Origin: an uncultured Schlesneria sp. | GTDB taxonomy: Bacteria; Planctomycetota; Planctomycetia; Planctomycetales; Planctomycetaceae | DNA length: 64,000 bases | Direction: 5' to 3' | Assembly (NCBI GenBank): GCA_903871875.1 | Contig: CAIQIR010000057.1 | Location: 62,001 to 126,000, forward strand | Notes under the pieces: model-generated | The model's input: only the letters and a program-made list of their open reading frames with translations | Told to the model about the DNA's origin: nothing | Database searches by the model: none | In this document: positions 27,534 to 51,705 of the stretch, in pieces | Numbering within the stretch: position 1 is the first letter of the stretch | Layout of the letters: each line of letters begins with the position of its first letter | Position numbers and translations under genes: made by a program

Positions 27534-27863
27534 TCAGACGGCGACTTCCAGATCGTGCAGCTGCAGAACTTGGTCGAGCTTGGTGATTTCCAAGACTTCG
27601 CGAATATCGGCCGAAGGGTTGTAAAGATGTACTTCGACCCCTTGTTTGCGGATCGAAGCCAACAGACCCAACAGGCCGCTCGGAATCAATCGGACCCGCG
27701 TCAGATCAAACGCCAGCACCTGACAGTTATTCTCACGAATGAGCTCAACCAGCTCATCACGACAATCCGCCACGTTCATATCATCGAGAACTTCCCTGCC
27801 GCCAAAACCAATGACGGTGAGTTCCCCCGCCTGGTAGACCTCAAGGGCCGAAACACTGTGCAT
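27534..27863 (-). CDS. STAS-domain anti-sigma factor antagonist
   Basis: A 109-residue single-domain STAS protein, of the kind that releases a sigma factor or other target by binding an anti-sigma kinase when dephosphorylated. The conserved region reads AFDLTRVRLIPSGLLGLL; Ser62, just before the glycine, occupies the usual phosphorylated position. AAGGAATTAAACG precedes the ATG. No kinase or PP2C phosphatase is adjacent. The receiver-PP2C protein at 48046 could be a partner by inference only. Confidence 0.88.
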   Translation of the reverse strand: MHSVSALEVYQAGELTVIGFGGREVLDDMNVADCRDELVELIRENNCQVLAFDLTRVRLIPSGLLGLLASIRKQGVEVHLYNPSADIREVLEITKLDQVLQLHDLEVAV

Positions 27864-39063: not shown

Positions 39064-39939
39064 TCACAGGATCGCGGGGATTTCCTGGACCTTTCGGTAA
39101 ACGAATGTCTGACCAATCTGTTCGGATTGAAACGGCGTCTCTAGCCCGTAAAGACTTTCGGCCGCGCCCAGGATGAGCAGACCGCCCATTGATAAGAGGC
39201 GATGAAATTGATTCCCCAGGCGTTCGCGGGTGGGGGCGTCGAAGTAGATCAGTACGTTGCGACAGAAAATCATCTCGAACGGCCCCAGGCTGGTGATCCG
39301 ATCCATGAAATTTAGCTGACGAAATTCAATCGATCGTCGAATGTCATCACGGATCACCCAGTGCTCGCCGTCTTGACGAAAATAGCGGGCGCGTTGCACC
39401 GCGGTGACGCCCCGTTCGAGGTCGCGTTCGAAGTAACGCCCTTCTTTCGCCACACTCAGTGACTTGGCGGACACGTCTGTTGCCAGGATCGGAAAATGGT
39501 CCGGCCGCAAATCGTTCGCTGGAAGACTTCCCACGAAGTCGCGCACCGCCATCGCCACACTGTATGGCTCTTGACCCGTCGAACACCCGGCCGACCAGAT
39601 TCTCGCCAACGGAATTGGATAATTGGATTCACGACGCTGTCGAATGGTCTCCGCCAATTCCGGCAGAATCCGACGTCGCAATTCGTCAAACAGATGGGAA
39701 TCGCGATTGAACGACGTTTCACCTGTCGTCAGTGCTTCGACCAGTTCATCGCGCATTTGCACGGCGTTGATCTGCTGTAGTCGACCAAGATACTCGGAAA
39801 ATGTGGCGCACCCATGAGCCTCGACAACCGACTCCAGCCGCGTCCGCACGAGATAGGTTTTGTCGTCCGTCAGGACCAGACCGCACAGCGAGCGGACTAG
39901 CGATTGGACATCTCGAAAATCCTGAGACGAGATCTCCAT
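39064..39939 (-). CDS. cheR: Chemotaxis protein methyltransferase CheR
   Basis: A 291-residue enzyme that methylates chemoreceptor glutamates with S-adenosylmethionine. The N-terminal all-alpha domain (MEISSQDFRDVQSLV) leads to ALTTGETSFNRD, then the SAM-binding IWSAGCSTGQEPYSVAM, ILATDVSAKSLSVAK and MIFCRNVLIYFD. It is the last gene of the chemosensory operon, four bases after the cheB stop. ATG 39939 fits the family start; the long upstream frame overlapping cheB is rejected. The receptor in this operon lacks the C-terminal pentapeptide tether for CheR. Confidence 0.95.
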   Translation of the reverse strand: MEISSQDFRDVQSLVRSLCGLVLTDDKTYLVRTRLESVVEAHGCATFSEYLGRLQQINAVQMRDELVEALTTGETSFNRDSHLFDELRRRILPELAETIRQRRESNYPIPLARIWSAGCSTGQEPYSVAMAVRDFVGSLPANDLRPDHFPILATDVSAKSLSVAKEGRYFERDLERGVTAVQRARYFRQDGEHWVIRDDIRRSIEFRQLNFMDRITSLGPFEMIFCRNVLIYFDAPTRERLGNQFHRLLSMGGLLILGAAESLYGLETPFQSEQIGQTFVYRKVQEIPAIL

Positions 39940-39943
39940 GCCT

Positions 39944-41011
39944 TTACCCTCCAACTCCCAGATGAGTGAGCAAGGCCGGCCCGATGTCGTCGATCGGCAG
40001 GATTTCATTGGCGGCGCCCGCGGCCACCACGCTGCCGGGCATTCCCCAAACCACGCTAGTCGCTTCATCCTGAGCGATGACATAAGCCCCCGCGCGTTTC
40101 AGTACAGCCGCCCCTTTGGCACCGTCGCAGCCCATTCCGGTCAGCACCACAGCCAGCACCTGTCCGGCGTAGGCCACCGCGGCCGAGCGAAACAGGACGT
40201 CGGCTGCGGGGCGACAGCCGTTTTCCGGCGGGGAATCGCTAGTTCCGAGAACCACCTGCCCCTCACTCGCGTTAATCACCAGGTGCTTGCCGCCGTGAGC
40301 AACATACAGGACTCCCGGTTCCGCAATCGCCCCCTCACGAGATTCCACGACCCTTGTGCCACAGCGACGCGACAAGCTCGAGGCAAAGTATTGCGTGAAG
40401 TCCGATGGCAAATGCTGCACCAAAAACATGGGAACCGGACAAACGGGAGCCAACACGGGAAGCAATCGACTGAGTGCTTCCGGTCCACCGGTCGATGAAC
40501 CAATCACGACGGCCCGAAAACGGCTTAACCGACGGACCGCGGAGGTGGATCGTGTGGATGGCGACCTGCCGACCGATTCCACTTGTCGGCGAGATCGAAA
40601 CGCGTCGATTTTCTCGAACAGTTGCTGGCGCAGCGATTCTGCGTTGGCATCCTGGTTGGCTCCTTCCGGCTTGGTGATGAAATCGAAGGCCCCTTCTTGC
40701 AAGCCTTCAATCGTCACGGCCGCCCCGCGCTGGGTGTATGAACTGATCAGCACCACACCCAGGAGATGCCGTTGCAGATGAGCGAGATCACGCAGGGCTT
40801 TCAGCGTCGCGATCCCGCCCAAGCCCGGCATATTGATGTCGAGCGTGACGAAATCGGGCAGAGACTTCCGGGCGAATTCCAGGGCCTTCTCGCCACTCCA
40901 GACCGAACCGACGACTTTCACGTCGTCACGCGTCGCCAGCGCCTCTTCGATGACGCTACGAAAGATGCGCGAGTCATCAACGATCAGCACTCGCAGGGGT
41001 TCGGGCTTCAT
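39944..41011 (-). CDS. cheB: Protein-glutamate methylesterase CheB
   Basis: A 355-residue response-regulator enzyme that demethylates or deamidates chemoreceptors. The receiver starts [15 protein letters not shown] and has the phosphoacceptor Asp in VTLDINMPG. The esterase domain has the nucleophile Ser in [11 protein letters not shown], His in [10 protein letters not shown], and Asp in GMGCDGAKG. Its start overlaps the receptor stop by four bases (ATGA), which implies translational coupling. Full length, no abnormal features. Confidence 0.96.
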
Positions 41012-43251
41012 TCGACGTCTGTATTTTCCGTATTAGTTTTGAATCGCCCGACGAGCTTCTTCAGCTCGTTACCGATCTGATCGAGTCGTTCGGCCGAATC
41101 GTGAACTTTCGAAGCTGACTGGTTTGTTGCCTTGGATGCCGTACTCACACCATGAATATCGGACGATATTCCGCCCGCCGCCTTTGCCGCCTCACCCACG
41201 TTTCGTGAGACATCCGTCGCGCCACGAGCCGCTTCGGCGACGTTTCGAGACATGTCTCCCGCGGCTTTCGCGACTTCCGCGATCGACCGTGCGATGTTGC
41301 CCACTCCTTTATTGGCTTCACCCACATTTTGAGAAATCATAGTCGCTGCCCGCGTTTGTTTCTCTACCGAGAGCGAGATTCGTCCGGCTGACGAATTGAT
41401 ATCCTTGATGATTTGCGAAACGTTTTGAATGACCTGCACCGCTTGTCGAGTGTCATTCTGGACGCCTTCGATCTTGCGAGCAATGTCTTCCGCCGCTTTC
41501 GCGCTCTGATTCGCCAATTCCTTGATCTCGTGAGCGACGACGGCAAAGCCCTTACCGGCCTCGCCTGCCGACGTGGCTTCGATTGTCGCATTCAGGGCCA
41601 GCAAGTTCGTTTGCAACGCGATCATTTTGATCGCTTCGGTCACTTTGCTGATTTCCGTGCCTGACTGGCTGAGCAGCTGAATCGTCGCGGTGGCCGAATC
41701 GGCCATCCGGCTGGCCTCGCCAGCCACGCGTGAGCCTTCACGCACGTCGTTCAAGACGTCGGTAAACGAACTGGAAATCTCACCCACCGCAGTCGAGACC
41801 ACGCTGACGTTATTTGACGTCTGCTCGGCCGCGGACGAGATTGTTCCCACGTTCATGCTCATCTCTTCGCTGGCGGAACTGATCGAGGCGACATTCACGC
41901 TCATCTGTTCCGCCGCGGCCGCCATCGTACTGATGTTGGATGACAATTCTTCCGACGCACTGGCCACATTGGCCGCTTTCATCGAGGCGGTTTCACTTTG
42001 AGACAGCAGATGATTAGAGACGCCCGTGAGATCAGTGGCCGAACCCGCCAGACCGGTGGAGACTTGTTGGATCTGCGTCACAATTTTGGTCAGCGAGTCG
42101 GCCAGTGAGTTGGTCGCATCGGAAAGCTGCCCCACTTCGTCCAGTTGCTTGAGCGAAATCCGCTGGCGCAAATCGCCGCCGGCCATCGCCTGCGCGAGAT
42201 TGCGGACTTCTAACACCGGTTTGACGACGGATTGCGTCACCAGGTAGGCAACCAAGAAGCCGAAAATGACACCAGCCACCGTGACACAGATGATCCACCA
42301 TAGCGAGCTGACGTAGACGGCTTCACTTTGATCACGACCGATTTTCGCTTCCGCGACCAGCAGCTTATCAAGCTCACCGATGCGTTTCACACATTCGTCA
42401 CCAGCCATTTTCGATTCGTTCAGTGACAAAGCGACAGAGCGATTATTTGTGTCGAGTCGCGACAGCTTCGTCATTTTGGCCAGCAACAGTTTGAGATCGG
42501 ATAATTTGGCTCGTGAATCAACCTGGTTGACCACGTCACCCACAGAAGCGATCGCCAACCCATTTTGGATCTGCTCCAGCAGTTCGTCCAGCTTCTTTTC
42601 CTGAGCCGACATTTCTTCGTCACCCGACGATTCGATGTGCTTGATGGCATTCGATTGAATTCGCATCAGGCTGTCGTGTACCTCGTAGAGAGTTTTCAAT
42701 CGCTTAACGCCTTGAGCGTCGAGCGTCTCTTTGGAAGTGACTTCGTCATCCCATGCCTGCAATCGCGCCGACAAGACGTCCGTCAATCGCTGGATATCCA
42801 TCGACAACAAACGTCGGGCTTTGATATTCGTGTTTTGAATCGCCAGATCCAAGATCTGTTCGTTGATCCGCCCCGCTTCATTCAGCGCTTTGATAAAGTC
42901 GTCAACCGCCTTCGATTGCGCGTCGTTGCGATCTCGGCCGATCAGTTCTTTTAATCTGGCCGCCTTATCCGTCGCTTCTGCCTGAAAGGCGCGGGACGCC
43001 GTGGCGAACGCTTTCGAGATGTCGTCTTCGGGAGAAAGAACCGCATTCTTTTGCGCTCGCACGCCTCCCAGGAATTTGACGTGCGACTCGGAAAGCTCAC
43101 TGACTTTCGCCATCGTCGCATCGACCAGATGCCGCACCTGAGCGTTGACGGTCGCCAGTCGATTCACTGCCACGTAGGCGACAGCCATGACCGACACCAT
43201 CAGGATGGTCGTCAACAAAAACATTTTACTGGCGAGTTTAAAGTTCTTCAC
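41008..43251 (-). CDS. Methyl-accepting chemotaxis protein
   Basis: A 747-residue membrane chemoreceptor. Helix 1 is at about residues 10-30 and helix 2 ([20 protein letters not shown]) at about 318-338. The roughly 280-residue periplasmic part is helical, with a four-helix-bundle look. A HAMP domain follows, then a long signalling coiled coil with the hairpin tip [20 protein letters not shown]. The coiled coil contains runs of near-identical heptads ([13 protein letters not shown], then [13 protein letters not shown]; later [36 protein letters not shown]). No C-terminal CheR tether. It is the only receptor in the operon. Confidence 0.95.
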
Positions 43252-43299: not shown

Positions 43300-43788
43300 T
43301 CAGGCAGAGACAGTAAAGTTCTGTTCAACGATGGTCAAAAATCGACGGGGATTCAGTACGACAAGTAACTCTTCCGGCAGCTTACCGATCGCGGCGATCA
43401 GATCGACCCGGCGCAACAGAGACGAGACTTGGCTATGTTCTGTCGCGGAAAAGACCTCGATTTGATCCGGTGTCACCGCATGCACTTCAGAAATCTCGTC
43501 CACGAGCACTCCGAATGGATGCCCCACAACCGGTTTGAACAACACCAGGCGGGTCTGGTCAGTGACGACCGCCGGGGACAACCCTAGCAGTTGACGCAGA
43601 TCAAGCGTCAGGTAAATGTGACCGCGAATATTCACCAGTCCCAACACTTCGTCGGGCGCATGCGCAATTCGCGTGCATCGGGTCTCAGTGGTCACCTCTT
43701 TGACATCAAGCATGTCGACGCCGAAAAGATGCCCTTCCAGGCGAAAGGTGCAAAACAGGCGCGGCATTTCCGTGACATTTTCCTTCAC
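43300..43788 (-). CDS. cheW: CheW coupling protein
   Basis: A 162-residue adaptor linking CheA to the receptor. CTFRLEGHLFGVDMLDVKEV opens the beta-barrel fold, then EVLGLVNIRGHIYLTLDLR and VVGHPFGVLVDEISEV, all standard CheW features. The start codon is GTG, overlapping the cheA stop (GTGA), so translation is coupled. It reaches residue 162 with a short C-terminal helix. The receptor gene follows after 48 bases. Confidence 0.95.
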   Translation of the reverse strand: MKENVTEMPRLFCTFRLEGHLFGVDMLDVKEVTTETRCTRIAHAPDEVLGLVNIRGHIYLTLDLRQLLGLSPAVVTDQTRLVLFKPVVGHPFGVLVDEISEVHAVTPDQIEVFSATEHSQVSSLLRRVDLIAAIGKLPEELLVVLNPRRFLTIVEQNFTVSA

Positions 43789-46700
43789 TTCATCACCTCT
43801 TGAGCGGCGAGTAGATTCCGGACTTTACGAACCAGCCGATCGTGGTCCAGTTTGACTTCGTATCCGTCGAATCCGCATTCCATGGCTTTGGCCTCGTTCT
43901 GTTCACCGCTGAGCGACGTCAGTGCGAGCATCTTGGTTTTGATTCCACGACGACGGACTTCGCGAGCAAACTTCCAGCCATCCATCACCGGCATTTCGAT
44001 GTCCGAGACGATCAAGTCAAAGTCGGGACCGGCGGACAATCTGTTCAATGCGTCCTGACCCTGAACGGCGGTCACGATTTCGTATCCTTCGGCGCCAAGA
44101 TAACGCTTGATCACTTCGCGAAAAAACGCCGTATCGTCGATTAGCAACAATCTCTGCCGACGATCAGTGGATTCGCCCGGTTCCGGCGGCGTCACTGGCA
44201 CGGCGCCGAACAGCCTTTCGGACAGATAGTGCATCTCTAAAAACAGGGTCAGTCGATCTCGTACCGTCGTCGAACCGAGAATCCCCAATCCTTCGTCGGC
44301 GTGAGCTTGTAAATCGAGCGCCAAAGATTCCGTATCGACGATGCGCGACACCAGAATCCCCATCGGCTGCTGCACGAACTTCGGCAAGATCAACGACATC
44401 AGCGGTGGATCGGACTTAAGTGACGAAGCATTGATCACGTGATCGAGGCGCAGCACACGAGTCGACACACCGTCCACCGTCACGTATTCGCGATCCCCAA
44501 CCCGTTCAATGCGGCTGGGTGTAATCATCTCGACGCGACGGATCTGCACCAGCGGCAACGCAAATTGTTCGTCGGGGCCGTACTCGAACAACAAGACACG
44601 GTGCGCCTGCGACGCGTCGCGCACACCGTCGGCCGTCGTCGCGGCTTCGATCGCCGCAGCAAAACTTTGCTGGGCATGTTCGGAAATGCCTTCGGCGTCG
44701 GTGATCAATGCGACGCGACCGTCTCCCATGATCGTCGCACCGGTAAAGATCCCGACGCGTTTCATTGAGGGATGCATCGGCTTGACGACGATTTCCTGAG
44801 TGCCGCGAACTTCATCCACCAGCAAACCGAATCGGCGGCCGGAGGATCGCAGGACCAAAATGTATTCGATCGGTTTGGCAGATTGATCAGCAGCATGAGC
44901 GGCCAAAATCTCGGACTTATCGGCGGGCGTAAACCGCCGCTTGCGACGGAGAACTTCTGACAATCGGACGATCGGCAACAACGTCTCTCGCAGACGATAC
45001 ACTTCCGTATCAAAGGCCTGCTCGATTCGCCCCGTGGATTGGGGATGCAGACAGACGACTTCTTCCAGATCGCGCTGGGGTACGGCAAATCGTTCTTCGT
45101 CCACCGTCACAATCAGACAGGGAATGATGGCCAATGTCAGCGGCAAACGCAGCACGGTCTCGCTTCCGACGCCGAAGGTCGAATCGATGCTGACGGTCCC
45201 TTCCAGCTGTTCGATGTTGGTTTTGACCACATCCATCCCGACGCCGCGTCCCGAAACTTCGGTGACTTTCTTGGCGGTGGAAAAGCCGGGCAACAAGATC
45301 AGCGAGAACAATTCACGGGCCGACATCCGGTCCAGTTCGGCTTCGCTCTTCAACATCAGCGACAGCGCTTTGGCTTTGACCGCCTGGGAATCAATTCCGC
45401 GACCATCATCGCGAATGTGAATTTGAATCTGGCCGTCCTCGTGTGTGGCCGACAACAGGATGTGACCAATCCCCGATTTCCCTTTGGCAATCCGTTCCTC
45501 CGGCATCTCGATTCCATGATCGACGCTGTTGCGGATGAGATGCATCAGCGGATCACCGAGTTGCTCCAGAATCGTTTTGTCCATTTCGACTTCGCGACCT
45601 TGCAAGTCGATTTCCACCTGTTTGCCAAGTTGCCGGGCCAAATCCCGGACCATTCGCGGAAATTTATTAAACAGAATCCCCACCGGCTGCATTCGCGACC
45701 TGAGGGTCACGTCCTGCAGTTCCGAAGTGACCGAATTCAACCGCTGAATGATCGCCCGCTGTGCGCCGTCTTCGTCGGCAAAGGCCAACAGCGATTGATT
45801 GCGAACCAAGGTCAATTCGCCGACCAGTGTCATCATGCGATCCAACAGTTCCACCTGAATTCGCAAGGTGGTCGGCTTGTCGGGTGTCACGATCGGCGGC
45901 AGTGCCGCCGGACTCGTCAAATCGGCAGCGGGTTGAGGACGGTCCTGACGAGATGACGTCGTCGGCGATTCCATCGCGGCGTACGAGTTTCCACCATCGG
46001 CTGCCTGCAGTGGCTTCGGCGAATCAAACGCGAACCCAAACCGACGCGTCAGTTCTGATGGGCTCAGACTTGTTTCGCATTCGCCAGACCAGATCACACG
46101 ACCGGACGGCAGTGAACGCCTCAGGTCTACTGCGGGGAATTCGATTTGCCCCGCACGAATCCGTACGACCGATGCCAGCTCTCGAAACGGCCCAGACAAT
46201 CCACGGTGCGTCTGCGACCACGCCGTCAAATCGGCTGACAGCAATATCGCCTGCGACGAATCGCTGGTCGCAGACGCGACGAACGTCGGCACGAATTCAT
46301 CAGGACCGGCCGAAGTCTCCAGGGCCGCTGTCCAGCGCACGGCACCCGTCGGCAAACCCATCCGCAAATCACACGCATCGAGCTGAATTTGTCCGTGACG
46401 GATTTTTCCTTTCGCCCACGTCTGTCGAATGAAATCAACCAGACTACCGGGGTACGAGGACTGCAGTTCTGTCAAATCGACATCGATCGAGGTTCGATGG
46501 AATTCGATTCCTCCAGTGCGCAACTGCGCCAGAATGTCGCTGATCTCAATCAGCGAACCTCGGCCGGGGTCATCGATCAGTACGGCCAATCGATCGCGAG
46601 CAGCCAGTAACAACTCAATCACCCGAGGCGAATTCCCCGGATGAGTGCCACTGAGCAGCGATTCCATCGCGTGGGCCAGTTCGTGAATGTGCGACAGCCC

Positions 46701-46868
46701 GAGAAACCCCGCATCACCTTTGATCGAATGGATCGACCGAAAACAGCGATCGATGCAGGCCGACGCATCGACCGAGCCTGACGGCTTTTCCAAAGCCAAC
46801 AACGACTCTTCGACAATGCCAAGGTGCTCGCGCGCATCGATGATGAATTCTTCGATTCGATCGATCAT
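43785..46868 (-). CDS. cheA: Hybrid CheA histidine kinase with two CheW domains and a receiver
   Basis: A 1,027-residue kinase. Domains: Hpt at about 1-110 with His47 in RSIHSIKGDAGFLG; a middle region about 120-280 with two similar ~40-residue units (starting near 155 and 236: IRHGQIQLDACDLR and IRAGQIEFPAVDLR); dimerisation helices about 335-395; ATPase about 400-580 (HLIRNSVDHGIE, GRGVGMDVVK); first CheW domain about 575-735; second CheW domain about 755-890; receiver about 905-1025 with Asp956 (VSDIEMPVMDGW). CheA proteins usually have one CheW domain and no receiver; the receiver could act as an internal phosphate sink. It sits 6 bases after the Hpt-STAS gene. Confidence 0.94.
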   Translation of the reverse strand: MIDRIEEFIIDAREHLGIVEESLLALEKPSGSVDASACIDRCFRSIHSIKGDAGFLGLSHIHELAHAMESLLSGTHPGNSPRVIELLLAARDRLAVLIDDPGRGSLIEISDILAQLRTGGIEFHRTSIDVDLTELQSSYPGSLVDFIRQTWAKGKIRHGQIQLDACDLRMGLPTGAVRWTAALETSAGPDEFVPTFVASATSDSSQAILLSADLTAWSQTHRGLSGPFRELASVVRIRAGQIEFPAVDLRRSLPSGRVIWSGECETSLSPSELTRRFGFAFDSPKPLQAADGGNSYAAMESPTTSSRQDRPQPAADLTSPAALPPIVTPDKPTTLRIQVELLDRMMTLVGELTLVRNQSLLAFADEDGAQRAIIQRLNSVTSELQDVTLRSRMQPVGILFNKFPRMVRDLARQLGKQVEIDLQGREVEMDKTILEQLGDPLMHLIRNSVDHGIEMPEERIAKGKSGIGHILLSATHEDGQIQIHIRDDGRGIDSQAVKAKALSLMLKSEAELDRMSARELFSLILLPGFSTAKKVTEVSGRGVGMDVVKTNIEQLEGTVSIDSTFGVGSETVLRLPLTLAIIPCLIVTVDEERFAVPQRDLEEVVCLHPQSTGRIEQAFDTEVYRLRETLLPIVRLSEVLRRKRRFTPADKSEILAAHAADQSAKPIEYILVLRSSGRRFGLLVDEVRGTQEIVVKPMHPSMKRVGIFTGATIMGDGRVALITDAEGISEHAQQSFAAAIEAATTADGVRDASQAHRVLLFEYGPDEQFALPLVQIRRVEMITPSRIERVGDREYVTVDGVSTRVLRLDHVINASSLKSDPPLMSLILPKFVQQPMGILVSRIVDTESLALDLQAHADEGLGILGSTTVRDRLTLFLEMHYLSERLFGAVPVTPPEPGESTDRRQRLLLIDDTAFFREVIKRYLGAEGYEIVTAVQGQDALNRLSAGPDFDLIVSDIEMPVMDGWKFAREVRRRGIKTKMLALTSLSGEQNEAKAMECGFDGYEVKLDHDRLVRKVRNLLAAQEVMK

Positions 46869-46874
46869 GAGGGT

Positions 46875-47654
46875 TTAGGTTCCTCCCGATTGAGCCGTTT
46901 GATCGAGCCCCGTCGCTTCCAGCACGCCACGCATGTCGGCGGTGAGTCCGGTCAGTTCCACCGGAGGGCCACCCAGCGTTCGTTGCGCGGGAAGGGCAGC
47001 CAGCAGGGCCAGGCCCGTGGCATCCAAGTCGTGCGTCAGGGAGAAATCGAGTCGGACCAGGGGAATCCCCGCATCCCAGGCAGACACGTAGGCGAGGCGA
47101 ACCGTCTCGGCCGCCGCCGCGTCCAGCACGGCCGGCACGACAATCACGCCTTGATGCAGTGGGGCCTTCGCTAGTGTCACCGTTTCTGGCAGCGGCATCC
47201 GATTGTCGATCGGAGCGCTGGCGGAGGGTTTCGGAATTGGCGAAGGTTCTCCCGCGAGAGACGCCTTGATCTCGACAACTAAGGATTTTGCCTCACGGTC
47301 GAATGACGACCAATCAACGATCGGCTCTTTGGACGCATTCGCAATTCGATTGAGCAGATCCACTCCGCGCAGCAGGACGTCAACATGTTCTGAGCGCAGA
47401 GTCAATTTGCCGTTCTGTGCGGCAACGAAACCATCTTCCATCACGTGAGCGACGCGTACCGCCGGATCGATACCGACGATTCGCGCCGCACCCTTGATCG
47501 AATGCGCGCCGCGCATCATTTCATCGATCTGCCCCGTCTCTTGAGGATCGCGTTCGAGAGCCAGCAGGCCGGACGTCAGCGATTCGACGTGCGTTTCCAC
47601 TTCCGCACGGAAAATCTCCATCATCGACGCGTCATTGAATGTCTCGCCACTCAT
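46875..47654 (-). CDS. Hpt-STAS fusion protein
   Basis: A 259-residue protein joining two signalling modules. The Hpt domain (about 1-120) has His51 in MRGAHSIKGAARIVG. After a Pro/Ser-rich linker (about 132-155), a STAS-like domain (about 155-255) shows LRLDFSLTHDLDATGLALL-type sequence, with Thr213 before the glycine at the position phosphorylated in STAS proteins. It is the first gene of the operon, with GAGG eight bases before the ATG. A divergent gene encodes a receiver-PP2C phosphatase, the usual enzyme acting on STAS phosphoproteins. It could thus link CheA phosphotransfer with partner switching. Both assignments are from motifs only; the STAS call is less certain than the Hpt. Confidence 0.82.
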   Translation of the reverse strand: MSGETFNDASMMEIFRAEVETHVESLTSGLLALERDPQETGQIDEMMRGAHSIKGAARIVGIDPAVRVAHVMEDGFVAAQNGKLTLRSEHVDVLLRGVDLLNRIANASKEPIVDWSSFDREAKSLVVEIKASLAGEPSPIPKPSASAPIDNRMPLPETVTLAKAPLHQGVIVVPAVLDAAAAETVRLAYVSAWDAGIPLVRLDFSLTHDLDATGLALLAALPAQRTLGGPPVELTGLTADMRGVLEATGLDQTAQSGGT

Positions 47655-48045
47655 GGCCAGCCTCAGTAAATCTTTTCATCAGGGCTCCATCATGTTTGAC
47701 GGAGGTGATCCAGACTGGGAAAGTGCGTTCCAAACTCCAGCGGTTTGAGAGGAACCCGACAAAACAGGGTGACACGTCGCGACGAAAATGGCTTTTCGAA
47801 TCGACGCAACACCACAAATGAACACTTTCTTCTATCCAATCAATATAGCCCAGGACAAACACTCATCCGACGAAATGGTTTGTTGGCGACGACGGACTCC
47901 GGTTTCGCCAACGGATTCGCTACAGCTGTGACGACAGTCATAATCGATAATTCCGTCAAATCTCAGAATGTTGTCCCTTTGGCGAAGATACTTCCGGAAT
48001 CCCTGCGTTGCGTTCCACAGAATTCGAGTGGTACAAGAGATCATC
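47655..48045. other. Divergent control region of the chemosensory locus
   Basis: About 390 bases between the Hpt-STAS gene (-) and the receiver-PP2C gene (+). It must carry both promoters. AT-rich stretches near 47830-47860 and 47935-47965 are candidates (for example TATATT on the minus strand near 47845), but no well-spaced consensus was found. No coding sequence. Confidence 0.5.
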
Positions 48046-49227
48046 ATGCCCGATTCAGTACGTGCGGATCATCGAGTCAAAGTATTACTCATCGACGACC
48101 AACCGATCGTCGCCGAAGCCATCCGCCGGATGCTCGAGCCCGAATCGGACATCGACTTTCATTATTGCGCCGACCCGGCCAAGGCCCTGGCCGTCGCCAA
48201 AGAGCTCTCGCCAACCATCATTCTGCAAGACCTTGTAATGCCCGACATCGACGGGCTATTGCTGCTGAAGTTCTATCAAGGAAACGCCTCGACTCGAGAT
48301 ATTCCGGTCATCGTTCTGTCATCACAAGAAGAACCGGTCACGAAAGCCAAAGCGTTTGAATTGGGTGCCAGCGACTATCTGGTCAAGCTGCCCGATCGCA
48401 TCGAATTGGTCGCTCGCGTCAAGCACCATTCCCGTGGCTATATCCATCTTCTCGAACGCAATGAAGCGTTTCGCGAACTGCATGAAAGTCAACGGGCACT
48501 GGCCGAGGATCTGGCTCAAGCGGAACGGTACGTCACTTCGCTGCTGCCGGACAAGATTGCGACCGAGAGCGTGGTGACCGATTGGAAGTTTATTCCGTCG
48601 TCAAAACTGGGTGGCGATTCGTTCGGCTATCACTGGATCGATGACGATCATTTCGCCTGCTATCTGCTCGACGTCTGTGGCCACGGAGTCAAAGCGGCGT
48701 TGATGTCAGTGTCGGCGATGAATGTGCTGCGTGCCCAAAGCTTGCCGGGTTGCGACTTCCGCGATGCCAGCCAAGTCCTTTCGGCACTGAACAACGCCTT
48801 TCTGATGGAAAAGCACAATGACATGTACTTCACCATCTGGTACGGCGTTTACAACAAAACAACGCGCGAATTGAATTATTCCGGGGCAGGGCATCCCCCG
48901 GCGTTGCTACTGTCCGATTCGCAGATCACGTGCCAGCAATTGGAAAGCCAGGGTCCGATGACCGGCATCATGGAAGATATGCCCTATGAGGGTGTCCGAA
49001 CCACTGTGGAACCCGGGTCGCGGTTGTATCTTTACAGCGACGGCATTTGCGAACTTCACAAACCCGATGGCTCGATGTGGCCTTTTGCCGAATTCATCGA
49101 CGCGATGTCGGCCCCACAACAACACGGGGAATCGGTCCTCGAGCGGATTCATACCGTCGGACTGCAAGTTCAAAACGGCAATCCCTTCGTCGATGACTTC
49201 TCGATTCTCGAAGTGAAACTCGTCTAG
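48046..49227 (+). CDS. Receiver-PP2C (RsbU/SpoIIE-type) phosphatase response regulator
   Basis: A 393-residue protein. The receiver (about 10-130) starts VKVLLIDDQPIVAEA with phosphoacceptor Asp62 in ILQDLVMPDIDG. A helical linker (about 130-165) leads to the PP2C domain with LGGDSFGY (Asp191), YLLDVCGHGVKAAL (Asp209), YSGAGHPPALLL, YSDGICEL and VDDFSILEVKL, so metal-binding residues are intact. Such proteins dephosphorylate STAS antagonists when the receiver is phosphorylated. The start at 48046 is just before the receiver; upstream frame rejected. Likely partners are the Hpt-STAS protein next door or the STAS protein at 27534. Confidence 0.94.
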   Translation: MPDSVRADHRVKVLLIDDQPIVAEAIRRMLEPESDIDFHYCADPAKALAVAKELSPTIILQDLVMPDIDGLLLLKFYQGNASTRDIPVIVLSSQEEPVTKAKAFELGASDYLVKLPDRIELVARVKHHSRGYIHLLERNEAFRELHESQRALAEDLAQAERYVTSLLPDKIATESVVTDWKFIPSSKLGGDSFGYHWIDDDHFACYLLDVCGHGVKAALMSVSAMNVLRAQSLPGCDFRDASQVLSALNNAFLMEKHNDMYFTIWYGVYNKTTRELNYSGAGHPPALLLSDSQITCQQLESQGPMTGIMEDMPYEGVRTTVEPGSRLYLYSDGICELHKPDGSMWPFAEFIDAMSAPQQHGESVLERIHTVGLQVQNGNPFVDDFSILEVKLV

Positions 49228-49263: not shown

Positions 49264-49357
49264 GTGCCACTGCTTCTCCGAAGCAGTGCTCTTCTGTTCG
49301 ATGCCGAACGCGGAACGGTCGAAAGAGAAAAACACTGCTTCGGAGAAGCAGTGACAC
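49264..49357. repeat. REPIN-like double hairpin, second copy
   Basis: Arms at 49264-49288 and 49333-49357 are inverted and match at 24 of 25 bases; each is a hairpin (CACTGCTTC / GAAGCAGTG). The left arm plus its inner flank CTCTTCTGTTCGAT matches the right arm and flank of the copy at 17213-17311 in inverse orientation. It lies between the convergent ends of the phosphatase and hpnD genes, so it may also aid termination. Confidence 0.8.
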
Positions 49358-49467: not shown

Positions 49468-50382
49468 TCAGGCAGACGATGACCGCGTCACTAACATCGC
49501 GCGTGCCGCGAACCACAGCTTCTTCCATTTGGGCAGCGAGATGCGTTTCGAGAAGACATCGAAGTGCCTGCGTTCGATTTCCTGCAACAGTCCACCATAG
49601 ATGTCGATCATCGCCCGAAGAATCCGCCGGCCAGGCGGATCAAGATATTGAAACAACCCTTCGGCGCGTTTGTAGTAGGCCTTCGCCCGGGCGGTTTCAA
49701 ATTTCATCAATTCGATAAACGAATCGTTAATCACTTGCGCCCGCAAATCGTCAACGGAATACCCAAATCGATCGAGGTCTTCACGAGGAAGATAAACTCG
49801 TCCCAAGTCTGCATCTTCGCGGATATCTCTGAGAATGTTCGTCAATTGCAGCGCCAGGCCGCAGTCGATCGCCAGCGGGATCGCCTTCTCGTCTCGAAAA
49901 CCCCAGACATGAATGCAGCACAAGCCAACGGCTCCGGCGACGTGATAGCAGTACCGTTCTAGCTCGGCAAACGTCGCCATCTCGACCGGTTGCAAATCCA
50001 TTTCCACTCCGTCGATCACCGCGAACAGATACTCCACCGGAATGCGACACCGAATCGCCATGTCGGCAATGGCGGGCTGAGCGGGATGATCCGGAAATGT
50101 CGCGACTTCGGACGCGCTGGGAGTTCGAATGCTTGTCAGGCCCTGGTCGCGACAGAGAGCGATTCGCAGCGATTCGCGCCAGGTCGTCAGTCGCGCTCGT
50201 CGCAGTTCCAGTGGGACATCTTCTTCGTCCCCCAAATCATCGGTGATCCGATTGAAGGCATAGAGGGCGTCCATCGAACGACGCTTGTCGCGCGGCAAGG
50301 TGAGAAACGAAAAACGAAAATTATGGGCCGTTCGTCGGGTCAGTTCACGGCAATAATCGTAGGACGCGAGCAGCGGCGGCAT
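49468..50382 (-). CDS. hpnD: Presqualene diphosphate synthase HpnD
   Basis: A 304-residue prenyl synthase of the squalene/phytoene synthase family. In the HpnCDE route HpnD joins two farnesyl diphosphates into presqualene diphosphate. The aspartate motifs are FNRITDDLGDEED and NILRDIREDADLGRVYLP, and the opening DYCRELTRRTAHNFRFSF is characteristic. ATG 50382 lies 17 bases after the hpnC stop; a frame back to 50532 overlaps hpnC and is rejected. Squalene would feed hopanoid, sterol or C30 carotenoid synthesis. The third enzyme, HpnE, is not in the window. Confidence 0.92.
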   Translation of the reverse strand: MPPLLASYDYCRELTRRTAHNFRFSFLTLPRDKRRSMDALYAFNRITDDLGDEEDVPLELRRARLTTWRESLRIALCRDQGLTSIRTPSASEVATFPDHPAQPAIADMAIRCRIPVEYLFAVIDGVEMDLQPVEMATFAELERYCYHVAGAVGLCCIHVWGFRDEKAIPLAIDCGLALQLTNILRDIREDADLGRVYLPREDLDRFGYSVDDLRAQVINDSFIELMKFETARAKAYYKRAEGLFQYLDPPGRRILRAMIDIYGGLLQEIERRHFDVFSKRISLPKWKKLWFAARAMLVTRSSSA

Positions 50383-50399
50383 GATCAAATTCACCAGTC

Positions 50400-51404
50400 T
50401 CAAGAATGTTCGCGGGAAGTGGGTTGCCCCTGATTTTGTCCGGGTCGACTCCGTCGAAACAATTGCCGCCAAAGAGCGCCCATCACCAACCCAACGGCAT
50501 CCAGTTTGGAAACCTTGGGTCGGGTTTCCCAAACGCGGTATCCGATCGCTTCAATCCGATCCAGGATCCGCAGACCACCGTGCGCAAACAAATCGATGTC
50601 GACCTGCAGACGGCCGGGAAGTTGCTCGACCAGTGGCAGTCCCTGTCGCAAAAACTGACGTGCGCGATCGACTTCGAATTTCATCAGTTCGAGAAACGCC
50701 GGGTTGATCCGCCGGACATCGAAGTCACGGCGGTCATATCCGAACCGCAAATAATCCTCTTTCGGCAGATAGATGCGACCAATGGCAAAATCGCGTGCAA
50801 CATCCTGCCAGAAATTGGCCAATTGCAAACCGGTGCAAATGGAATCGGACCAGATCACGTTTTGTTCGTTGTACGCGCGGCAAAGAAACAACACCAACCG
50901 CCCCACGGGATCGGCGCTCCGGCGGCAATAATCGCGCAGTTGGTCAAACGAGTCGTATTCGAGAATCGACTGATCCTGCTCAAACGCGGAAATCAAATCC
51001 AGAAACGGCTGACGGGGAATCGAAAACGCGTCGATGGTCGGTTTAAGTGCGATGAACACCGGATGCCGTAACCGCCCTTCGTAACAGGCATTCAATTCAC
51101 CTCGCCACCAATTCAGCAGCTCCAGCGATTTCGCAGTGTCGCCGACTTCGTCGCCCAGATCGTCGGCCCAGCGGCAGTAGGCATAGACGTTGTAAAAGTG
51201 CTGATGCAAGCCTTTGGGCAACAGCCAGGACACGACGGGAAAGTTTTCGTAGTGCGATGTGGCCAGGGTCCGGCAATACACTTCGGCCGTGCATTGATCG
51301 AACGGGATCGCAGGGGGAGGGGCCTGGGGGCCGTAACGTTCCAGATCATGAGCAAACAACGGTAGACGACTTTCTGTTTCGTGGACCCGACCACCATCCG
51401 ACAT
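50400..51404 (-). CDS. hpnC: Hydroxysqualene synthase HpnC
   Basis: A 334-residue relative of squalene synthase that converts presqualene diphosphate to hydroxysqualene. HYENFPVVSWLLPKGLHQHF is the HpnC-type opening, with aspartate motifs YCRWADDLGDEVGD and NFWQDVARDFAIGRIYLP. It is longer at the N-terminus than HpnD. The start is uncertain: ATG 51404, ATG 51431 or TTG 51437, none with a clear ribosome site. It is followed by hpnD, a conserved gene order. Confidence 0.92.
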   Translation of the reverse strand: MSDGGRVHETESRLPLFAHDLERYGPQAPPPAIPFDQCTAEVYCRTLATSHYENFPVVSWLLPKGLHQHFYNVYAYCRWADDLGDEVGDTAKSLELLNWWRGELNACYEGRLRHPVFIALKPTIDAFSIPRQPFLDLISAFEQDQSILEYDSFDQLRDYCRRSADPVGRLVLFLCRAYNEQNVIWSDSICTGLQLANFWQDVARDFAIGRIYLPKEDYLRFGYDRRDFDVRRINPAFLELMKFEVDRARQFLRQGLPLVEQLPGRLQVDIDLFAHGGLRILDRIEAIGYRVWETRPKVSKLDAVGLVMGALWRQLFRRSRPGQNQGQPTSREHS

Positions 51405-51705
51405 GGTGAAACGAAACGCGGGGACAATCATTCGCAAGGCGGTGATTGTGATCGAATTGCCGTTGAATTCCCACCTTGACCGGTTTCGAAGAATCGCGAA
51501 TCATGGTCGCCTTGGCGCGGGGTGTCCTGGTTCCCTTGGGCGACCTCGGCAAAATGGGCTGCGATCCTCGTTCGCAATCCGTTTCAAATGGGGTTCCTTT
51601 AGTTGGGGATGGTCAAGATAATCGCCGCCTCGCGACGCGACCAATGAATGGCCCCGCGTGTGCTGCTCGAAGCCTTCAATCGTGTCCTCAGGGAAGAAGA
51701 CCATC
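51405..51705. other. Divergent intergenic region
   Basis: About 300 bases between hpnC (-) and the TAXI protein gene (+). No RNA gene or consensus promoter seen. Confidence 0.4.

Follow-up and report, generated by a model that had tools for sequence, protein, structure and literature searches.

A chemosensory operon on a 64,000-nucleotide stretch of DNA from an uncultured Schlesneria sp., a planctomycete with a genome of 7.6 Mb, begins with a gene whose product joins an Hpt domain to a STAS domain, and a gene for a receiver-PP2C phosphatase is transcribed divergently from it. The whole stretch is referred to below as the window. The locus raises the question of what a STAS domain does on a phosphotransfer protein encoded directly before a CheA kinase. 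A first-pass annotation of the sequence had compared the gene pair with the Pseudomonas HptB-HsbR-HsbA system and had seen in the fusion a partner-switch protein under chemosensory control. The reading favoured here, to which we give slightly better than an even chance, is that the operon is a planctomycete chemosensory cassette related to Wsp, in which the STAS domain would dock a detached WspE-type Hpt domain on CheA and the Hpt domain would pass phosphate to the receiver-PP2C. The STAS domain is thus probably a clip that holds the Hpt domain to the kinase, rather than a sigma-factor switch.

The Hpt-STAS protein and the divergent receiver-PP2C

46875..47654, minus strand: Hpt-STAS protein, 259 amino acids (aa), first gene of the chemosensory operon (open reading frame (ORF), Pfam, predicted structure)
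47355..47624, minus strand: Hpt domain, residues 11-100, assigned to the WspE type (Pfam, identity, tree)
47502-47504, minus strand: phospho-acceptor His51 of Hpt-STAS
46902..47144, minus strand: STAS domain, residues 171-251 (Pfam, profile-to-PDB, Foldseek, site read-out)
47019-47021, minus strand: canonical STAS phosphosite, Ala212 (SpoIIAA and RsfB alignments), Thr213 being the next residue
47655..48045: intergenic region of 391 bases between the divergent genes
48046..49227, plus strand: receiver-PP2C response regulator, 393 aa (Pfam, PDB matches, tree, site check)
48082-48423, plus strand: receiver of the receiver-PP2C
48640-49218, plus strand: PP2C domain of the receiver-PP2C

The fusion proposed in the first-pass annotation is borne out in both halves. 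The N-terminal part matches Pfam Hpt with E 6.8e-15, and its His51 lies within the motif H-S-[IV]-K-G, which is found in 25/25 Hpt-STAS proteins. The AlphaFold model of the full protein has a mean predicted local distance difference test score (pLDDT) of 84.9; Foldseek matched it to CheA P1 domains (1tqg, target TM-score (TMt) 0.87), and only two matches of the model had E < 0.001.

Residues 1-104 are 57% identical to a P. aeruginosa PA7 CheA whose gene stands before one for a REC-GGDEF protein. In a scan of genome contigs 155 relatives were confirmed, 80 of which were kept and annotated, with a few loci cut by contig ends. Among these 80, 10 are Hpt-STAS proteins, all in Planctomycetota records, and nearly all the others are CheAs carrying this Hpt N-terminally, many of them followed by a receiver-GGDEF gene. 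A tree of 116 Hpt rows separates 28 P1 domains belonging to the CheAs of the lineage from the Hpts of Hpt-STAS and WspE-type proteins, with a Shimodaira-Hasegawa-like approximate likelihood ratio (SH-aLRT) support of 99. By sequence kinship the Hpt domain is of the WspE type; we presume the names WspE and WspR for the matched genes, whose architecture and gene order are what the analysis gives.

The STAS assignment is less immediate. Pfam STAS_2 matches residues 171-251 with E 2e-6 and 28.3 bits, slightly below the curated cut-off of 29.2, and Pfam STAS gives E 2.9e-4 and 21.0 bits against a cut-off of 22.6. Some relatives exceed the cut-offs, for example L040 (STAS_2 1.3e-11) and L170 (2.2e-9), and others stay below them, such as L038 with 0.038. 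A profile built from 17 homologues of the C-terminal domain finds in the PDB SpoIIAA (1tid, 9.9e-8; 1th8, 4.2e-7), RsbV (6m36, 1.3e-6) and MlaB (2e-5), and Foldseek matches the predicted structure to SpoIIAA and RsbV with TMt 0.66/0.76, E 4e-3 to 3e-2 and probability 1.00. The predicted SpoIIAA-like fold and the profile match together confirm the domain as STAS.

Its phosphosite is unusual. The first-pass annotation had put Thr213 there, one residue off: in the profile alignment D57-S58-S59-G60 of SpoIIAA (1th8) stands opposite D211-A212-T213-G214. Counted from the coordinates of this alignment, Ser58 of SpoIIAA is the first residue after the Asp, and it is the residue named in a STAS review (PMC8256260, available part). 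The single Ser of the RsfB motif G-S-V-G falls on the Ala212 column as well, so the canonical site is Ala212 and not Thr213. Hidden Markov model (HMM) read-out of the 25 Hpt-STAS proteins gives Ala in 12, Val in 6, Pro in 6 and Thr in 1 at this site, and never Ser; at the Thr213 column Thr occurs in 9/25, including all five members of the window's genus that have Hpt-STAS. Further STAS domains encoded in this genome, when read in this way, show Ser in 10/11 and Asp in one, some of these matches being weak (4.8 to 9 bits), and two further ones, read by eye, have Glu and Ser. With Ala, Val or Pro in 24/25 as opposed to Ser in 10/11, this STAS domain is unusual in being unable to accept phosphate at the canonical position.

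The divergent gene encodes a receiver-PP2C, as the first-pass annotation had said (Response_reg 1.1e-20, SpoIIE 6.8e-42); its homologues favour the ATG at 48046 over that at 47968 as the start. Pfam found these two domains only in the 393 aa, and no anti-sigma-kinase domain of the HsbR/CrsR kind. The best PDB matches of the receiver, 3bre (E 7.3e-56) and 3i5a (4.9e-51), which we take to be WspR, precede the receiver-PP2C 3eq2 (2.8e-28), presumably the RssB-type protein of P. aeruginosa. A receiver tree sets 70 WspR-type receivers apart from 20 sampled others with support 95, with long-branch warnings and after random sampling of the distant receivers from 92 to 20 and of the WspR ones from 46 to 25. 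The receiver is therefore classed by sequence as WspR-type, nearer to WspR than to the RssB-type receiver-PP2C.

Sixteen receiver and phosphatase positions, including Asp62 and the PP2C metal residues, were compared in 19 receiver-PP2Cs and nearly all are kept; the departures are Thr for Ser92 and Ala for Gly189, each in one protein, and the C-terminal Asp pair is unread in one at a contig end. Conservation of Asp62 and the metal residues suggests that the phosphatase is probably active and in need of a substrate. Ser-bearing STAS proteins and RsbW-type kinases are encoded on other contigs of the genome, including a neighbouring STAS/RsbW-like pair on contig C162, and the RsbW-type kinase family PF13581 has 14 matches in the genome, none on the window's contig. 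A Ser-phosphorylated STAS protein from another locus is the probable substrate.

No match to the sigma-70 consensus was found in the intergenic region. Directly behind the receiver-PP2C gene the palindrome CACTGCTTCTCCGAAGCAGTG occurs twice (49268-49288 and 49333-49353), which may be an intergenic repeat or a terminator pair.

Conservation of the cassette and the probable partner of STAS

43785..46868, minus strand: CheA, 1027 aa, with Hpt (His47), P2-like repeats, dimerisation domain, ATPase, two CheW domains and receiver (Pfam, motifs)
45894..46481, minus strand: two P2-like repeats, CheA residues 130-325, putative STAS docking site
43300..43788, minus strand: CheW (Pfam)
41008..43251, minus strand: chemoreceptor, 747 aa, with 4HB_MCP_1, HAMP and MCPsignal domains (Pfam)
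39944..41011, minus strand: CheB, receiver and methylesterase (Pfam)
39064..40083, minus strand: CheR (Pfam), start codon uncertain, the ORF overlapping cheB

The cheA gene starts 6 bases after the Hpt-STAS ORF, and the operon continues with 4-base overlaps or gaps of 6 to 48 bases, cheR excepted. Between its own Hpt and the dimerisation domain, CheA has two repeats of about 70 residues. They are called P2-like only; naming them P2 was abandoned because their model has a pLDDT of 73.5 and no PDB match has E < 0.001.

Residues 326-735 of CheA were used to search 397 genomes of the class. At least 24 contain a CheA of this lineage, with scores from 439 bits upwards, and the next score is 387; genome counts are lower bounds, up to six candidates per genome being scored in the Hpt-STAS search and up to four in the CheA search. 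Twenty-three of the 24 are assessable: 22 have a separate Hpt-STAS gene before cheA (20 found by the Hpt-STAS search, G220 and G057 recognised later) and in one, G263, the Hpt is fused to CheA. Rows were dropped or thinned for G254, whose contig stops within CheA, for G625 at a contig edge and, in the repeat count, for L084, whose CheA is cut. The order Hpt-STAS, CheA, CheW, chemoreceptor, CheB, CheR was read in 21/22, the exception G299 lacking cheB and cheR after the receptor gene, and is a conserved planctomycete cassette. Within the window's genus, 5/15 genomes searched have the full Hpt-STAS protein.

The divergent gene is conserved too. Directly divergent from the operon, 17/23 assessable genomes have a WspR-type receiver gene, which is a receiver-PP2C in 16 (G263 included, hence 15/22 of those with separate Hpt-STAS) and a receiver-cyclase in one (G027). 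Both checks set by the first-pass annotation, the STAS fold of the C-terminal domain and conservation of the receiver-PP2C gene next to the operon, speak for it. In G014, of the window's genus, the receiver-PP2C shares the contig with the operon and is found some 7 kb past cheR. Five genomes of family f2 have no such gene in the 20 kb fetched. Their receiver-PP2Cs occur elsewhere: that of G155 belongs to a Wsp-like operon and that of G075 to a different che cluster, those of G120 and G135 stand beside cheB, and that of G094 has no detected che genes around it.

Outputs are exchanged around the same receiver. In 7/8 Wsp-like operons fetched from other class members a receiver-PP2C replaces the receiver-GGDEF protein (L041-L047, whose CheAs have one or two detected WspE-type Hpts; L048 has none). 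In G027 and on a Desulfobacterales contig (L089 13923-15377) the WspR-type receiver has a class III cyclase attached, and in Oscillatoria and Verrucomicrobiales (L085 14126-15490; L082 7735-9957) a histidine kinase. At L136 18473-20847, two WspR-type regulators follow an Hpt-STAS operon; one carries PP2C and the other an HD domain.

Remoter CheAs of the lineage suggest what the STAS domain accompanies. Four were found among 392 genomes drawn from the phylum (G536, G416, G522 and G625), and the CheA tree tentatively places them outside the Hpt-STAS group (fork 85/77). Directly before cheA, G536 has a stand-alone STAS gene of 115 aa (Pfam STAS 1.5e-11) and G416 one of 129 aa (custom profile 2e-6); G522 has no STAS gene before cheA, and G625 is cut by the contig end. 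These two stand-alone genes point to CheA as the partner of STAS. The fused case G263, which is sister to G045 (95/95), has its Hpt1 on CheA, no STAS and a 23-residue linker without repeat, and keeps the receiver-PP2C. G311, placed beside G220/G057 (93/94, long branch), has no STAS, extra Hpt or repeat in the stretch fetched.

An HMM of the repeat finds at least one copy in 26/26 readable CheAs with a STAS partner (24 with Hpt-STAS, and G536 and G416; domain E up to 0.05). It finds none in the 10 CheAs without a STAS partner, namely G263, G522 and the eight next-closest CheAs, nor in G625. The eight have no STAS in the stretches fetched, and the repeat is absent from them at domain E up to 1 with the same settings. 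In the simplest reading of these sequences, STAS was at first a companion of CheA, the WspE-type Hpt then joined it, and later both were lost or the Hpt moved into CheA.

A second STAS gene of the window (27534-27863, minus strand) encodes a stand-alone protein of 109 aa with Ser at the phosphosite and has relatives in 9/9 genomes searched. A link with the che operon was rejected: in the six relatives with Hpt-STAS that were searched, more than 1 Mb separates its best match from the che operon or the two are on different contigs, and G001 and G008, of the same genus without detected Hpt-STAS, have the gene too. Elsewhere in the same genome, the minus strand of contig C154 (L190) encodes, one after the other, a STAS protein (287 aa ORF), a receiver-HATPase_c_2 protein and a protein with an Hpt, possibly a different partner-switch locus. 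Two adjoining ORFs at 49468-51437 (minus strand) of the window resemble squalene/phytoene synthases by eye.

Phosphate flow and competing explanations

We infer the following course of signalling. The chemoreceptor-CheW array would control the hybrid CheA, and the STAS domain would dock the Hpt domain onto CheA, the likeliest site being the P2-like repeats that separate the kinase's own Hpt from its dimerisation domain. The CheA ATPase would then phosphorylate His51 in trans, and from there the phosphate would reach the WspR-type receiver that the divergent gene encodes and switch its PP2C phosphatase, which probably acts on the Ser-phosphorylated STAS protein encoded elsewhere. The docking role is favoured because STAS and the repeat are absent together and because the CheS protein of Sinorhizobium meliloti provides a precedent.

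Several observations weigh against this reading. CheA keeps its own P1 domain (the motif is present in 29/29 CheAs read), and therefore does not need an extra Hpt to complete the kinase. No WspR-type receiver gene was found in the approximately 20 kb fetched around the operon in the five f2 genomes mentioned above. The Hpts of Hpt-STAS proteins are not recovered as one clade among the WspE-type ones (100-column tree, three label changes), and the fused-Hpt case G263 is a single genome, 94% complete. The STAS of G416 is seen by the custom profile alone, Pfam giving nothing, and that of G536 has Ser at the phosphosite, which would allow for phosphorylation of the ancestral STAS. The repeat model was made from five seeds taken from four of the 26 CheAs that it later matched, and its weakest match, G364, has E 0.039. 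G522, with neither STAS gene nor detectable repeat, has a 150-residue linker, in which the repeat may merely have diverged. The tested STAS/repeat pairs all go in the same direction and the hand-entered labels coincide in 36/36 rows; the independent pairs are two on well supported branches and four on all branches (sign test p 0.5), and co-occurrence statistics were dropped because independent events are too few.

A wider form of the docking proposal, which is held tentatively and at distinctly less than even odds, takes STAS for a general CheA plug: a non-phosphorylatable STAS domain would recognise the P2-like repeat, and the array would thereby accept an exchangeable Wsp phosphotransfer module with its own receiver and output (PP2C, cyclase or HD). 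If true, it would give the STAS genes of che operons a function apart from sigma-factor partner switching.

The source of the phosphate could also differ. In a multistep relay, which we consider rather unlikely, STAS would still dock, and the phosphate would run from the P1 domain of CheA to the receiver-PP2C by way of CheA's C-terminal receiver and, after it, the Hpt of Hpt-STAS, so that the Hpt would be charged from Asp and not from ATP. An intact Hpt together with a C-terminal receiver is the layout of a phosphorelay kinase, and, as is common for relay Hpts, the extra Hpt is carried by another protein. The receiver offers no argument against the relay, since among the 29 CheAs read only that of the outgroup G416 has no match for it. 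What speaks against it is the kinship of this Hpt with the kinase-fused WspE-type Hpts, which are assumed to receive phosphate from the kinase that carries them.

Alternatively, the STAS domain may be a permanently unphosphorylated anti-sigma antagonist that binds an RsbW-type kinase elsewhere, with a binding altered by Hpt phosphorylation. The best PDB match of all, the 1tid chain of SpoIIAA, also has Ala at the site, the S56A variant of HsbA mimics the unphosphorylated state with Ala (PMC6482189, available part), and RsbW-type proteins are encoded in the genome. We regard this as improbable, given Val or Pro at the site in 12/25 proteins, the absence of any RsbW-type kinase gene from the contig and the two outgroups with STAS alone before the cheA of this lineage.

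Least probable by a clear distance from even odds is the model of the first-pass annotation, in which Thr213 is phosphorylated and the divergent PP2C is its phosphatase: it has on its side the divergent gene pair, Thr213 as kept within the window's genus, and the systems reviewed in PMC8256260 (available part), where the phosphatase acts on the STAS protein, yet Thr213 lies beyond the canonical site and is mostly not conserved, Val and Met stand there in G388 and G360 of genus g39, both of which retain the receiver-PP2C (72 and 70% identical), Hpt-STAS adjoins a receiver-cyclase in G027, and none of the PF13581 matches is on the contig. Hsb-type partner switching through this STAS domain was rejected on account of the phosphosite, the output swapping and the G263 fusion. 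The STAS domain is kept with a cyclase output (L040) and without a nearby WspR-type receiver (the five f2 genomes), and the PP2C without STAS (G263). Of the proposed connection between chemosensing and partner switching, the tie of the che operon to the receiver-PP2C is supported by gene order and domain kinship; the STAS domain as substrate of the PP2C is not.

Relation to known systems

The HptB-HsbR-HsbA and CrsR-CrsA systems share with this locus the combination of Hpt, receiver-PP2C and STAS, and CrsR/CrsA also lie in a che locus. Here, however, the receiver-PP2C has no anti-sigma-kinase domain, the STAS domain has no phospho-Ser, and Hpt and STAS are fused; the kin of the two proteins are WspE and WspR. 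The first-pass annotation knew of no description of chemosensing combined with partner switching, but the Shewanella che1 locus, which encodes the partner switch CrsR/CrsA, precedes it (PMC9855816, available part); its authors write of Che1 that it "could be" involved in regulating RpoS, or "probably" is. Among the papers listed by full-text searches of open-licence PMC papers, none on an Hpt-STAS protein was found.

STAS genes occur in several che clusters and are often thought to be sigma-factor switches: alphaproteobacterial cheS, an uncharacterised gene in Shewanella che2 (PMC9855816, same part) and the STAS-only genes in a published gene-order figure for Campylobacterota classes. CheS of S. 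meliloti is a STAS-only protein that is reported to bind CheA (PMC12654446, available part). The CheS of S. meliloti and A. fabrum resembles the present case in being a STAS protein encoded in a che cluster; here the STAS gene stands next to cheA, and in G536 and G416 a STAS-only gene does so. It differs in that STAS is here fused to Hpt, and the likeness is one of gene position and description.

A phospho-accepting Hpt on a separate protein is also known from the split kinase CheA3/CheA4 of R. sphaeroides (PMC3591291, available part). Unlike in that system, CheA keeps its own Hpt here and so is not a split CheA, and docking would be by STAS and not by P5. PMC10782961, the available text of which does not contain the term STAS, describes che operons with a separate Hpt gene and CheAs of the ACF class with several Hpts. 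The RssB-type receiver-PP2C of P. aeruginosa (3eq2) has its two domains arranged alike (102 bits over residues 12-337), but the protein of the window reaches 111.9 bits against the cut-off of 700 of NCBIfam NF045505 and has a receiver closer to WspR.

Wsp (WspABCDEFR, ACF class) is the nearest relative in parts, sharing the WspE-type Hpt, the WspR-type receiver, the chemoreceptor, CheW, CheB, CheR and a hybrid CheA with C-terminal receiver. In the planctomycete cassette the Hpt is on a separate STAS protein, the gene order differs from that of Wsp with its two CheW genes, and the CheA core is of another lineage, complete WspE-type cores scoring about 140-185 bits in phmmer searches with P3P4 as opposed to 281-439 for Hpt-STAS relatives and 293 for G263. 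The output is PP2C or cyclase instead of GGDEF or the WspH histidine kinase; WspR or WspH are the sole outputs reported in the available part of a survey of beta- and gammaproteobacteria (PMC8552884). The cassette combines a Wsp-type Hpt/receiver pair with another CheA and with several outputs. Within the lineage, a stand-alone STAS before CheA, Hpt-STAS, and Hpt fused to CheA without STAS form a natural series that makes the docking idea directly testable.

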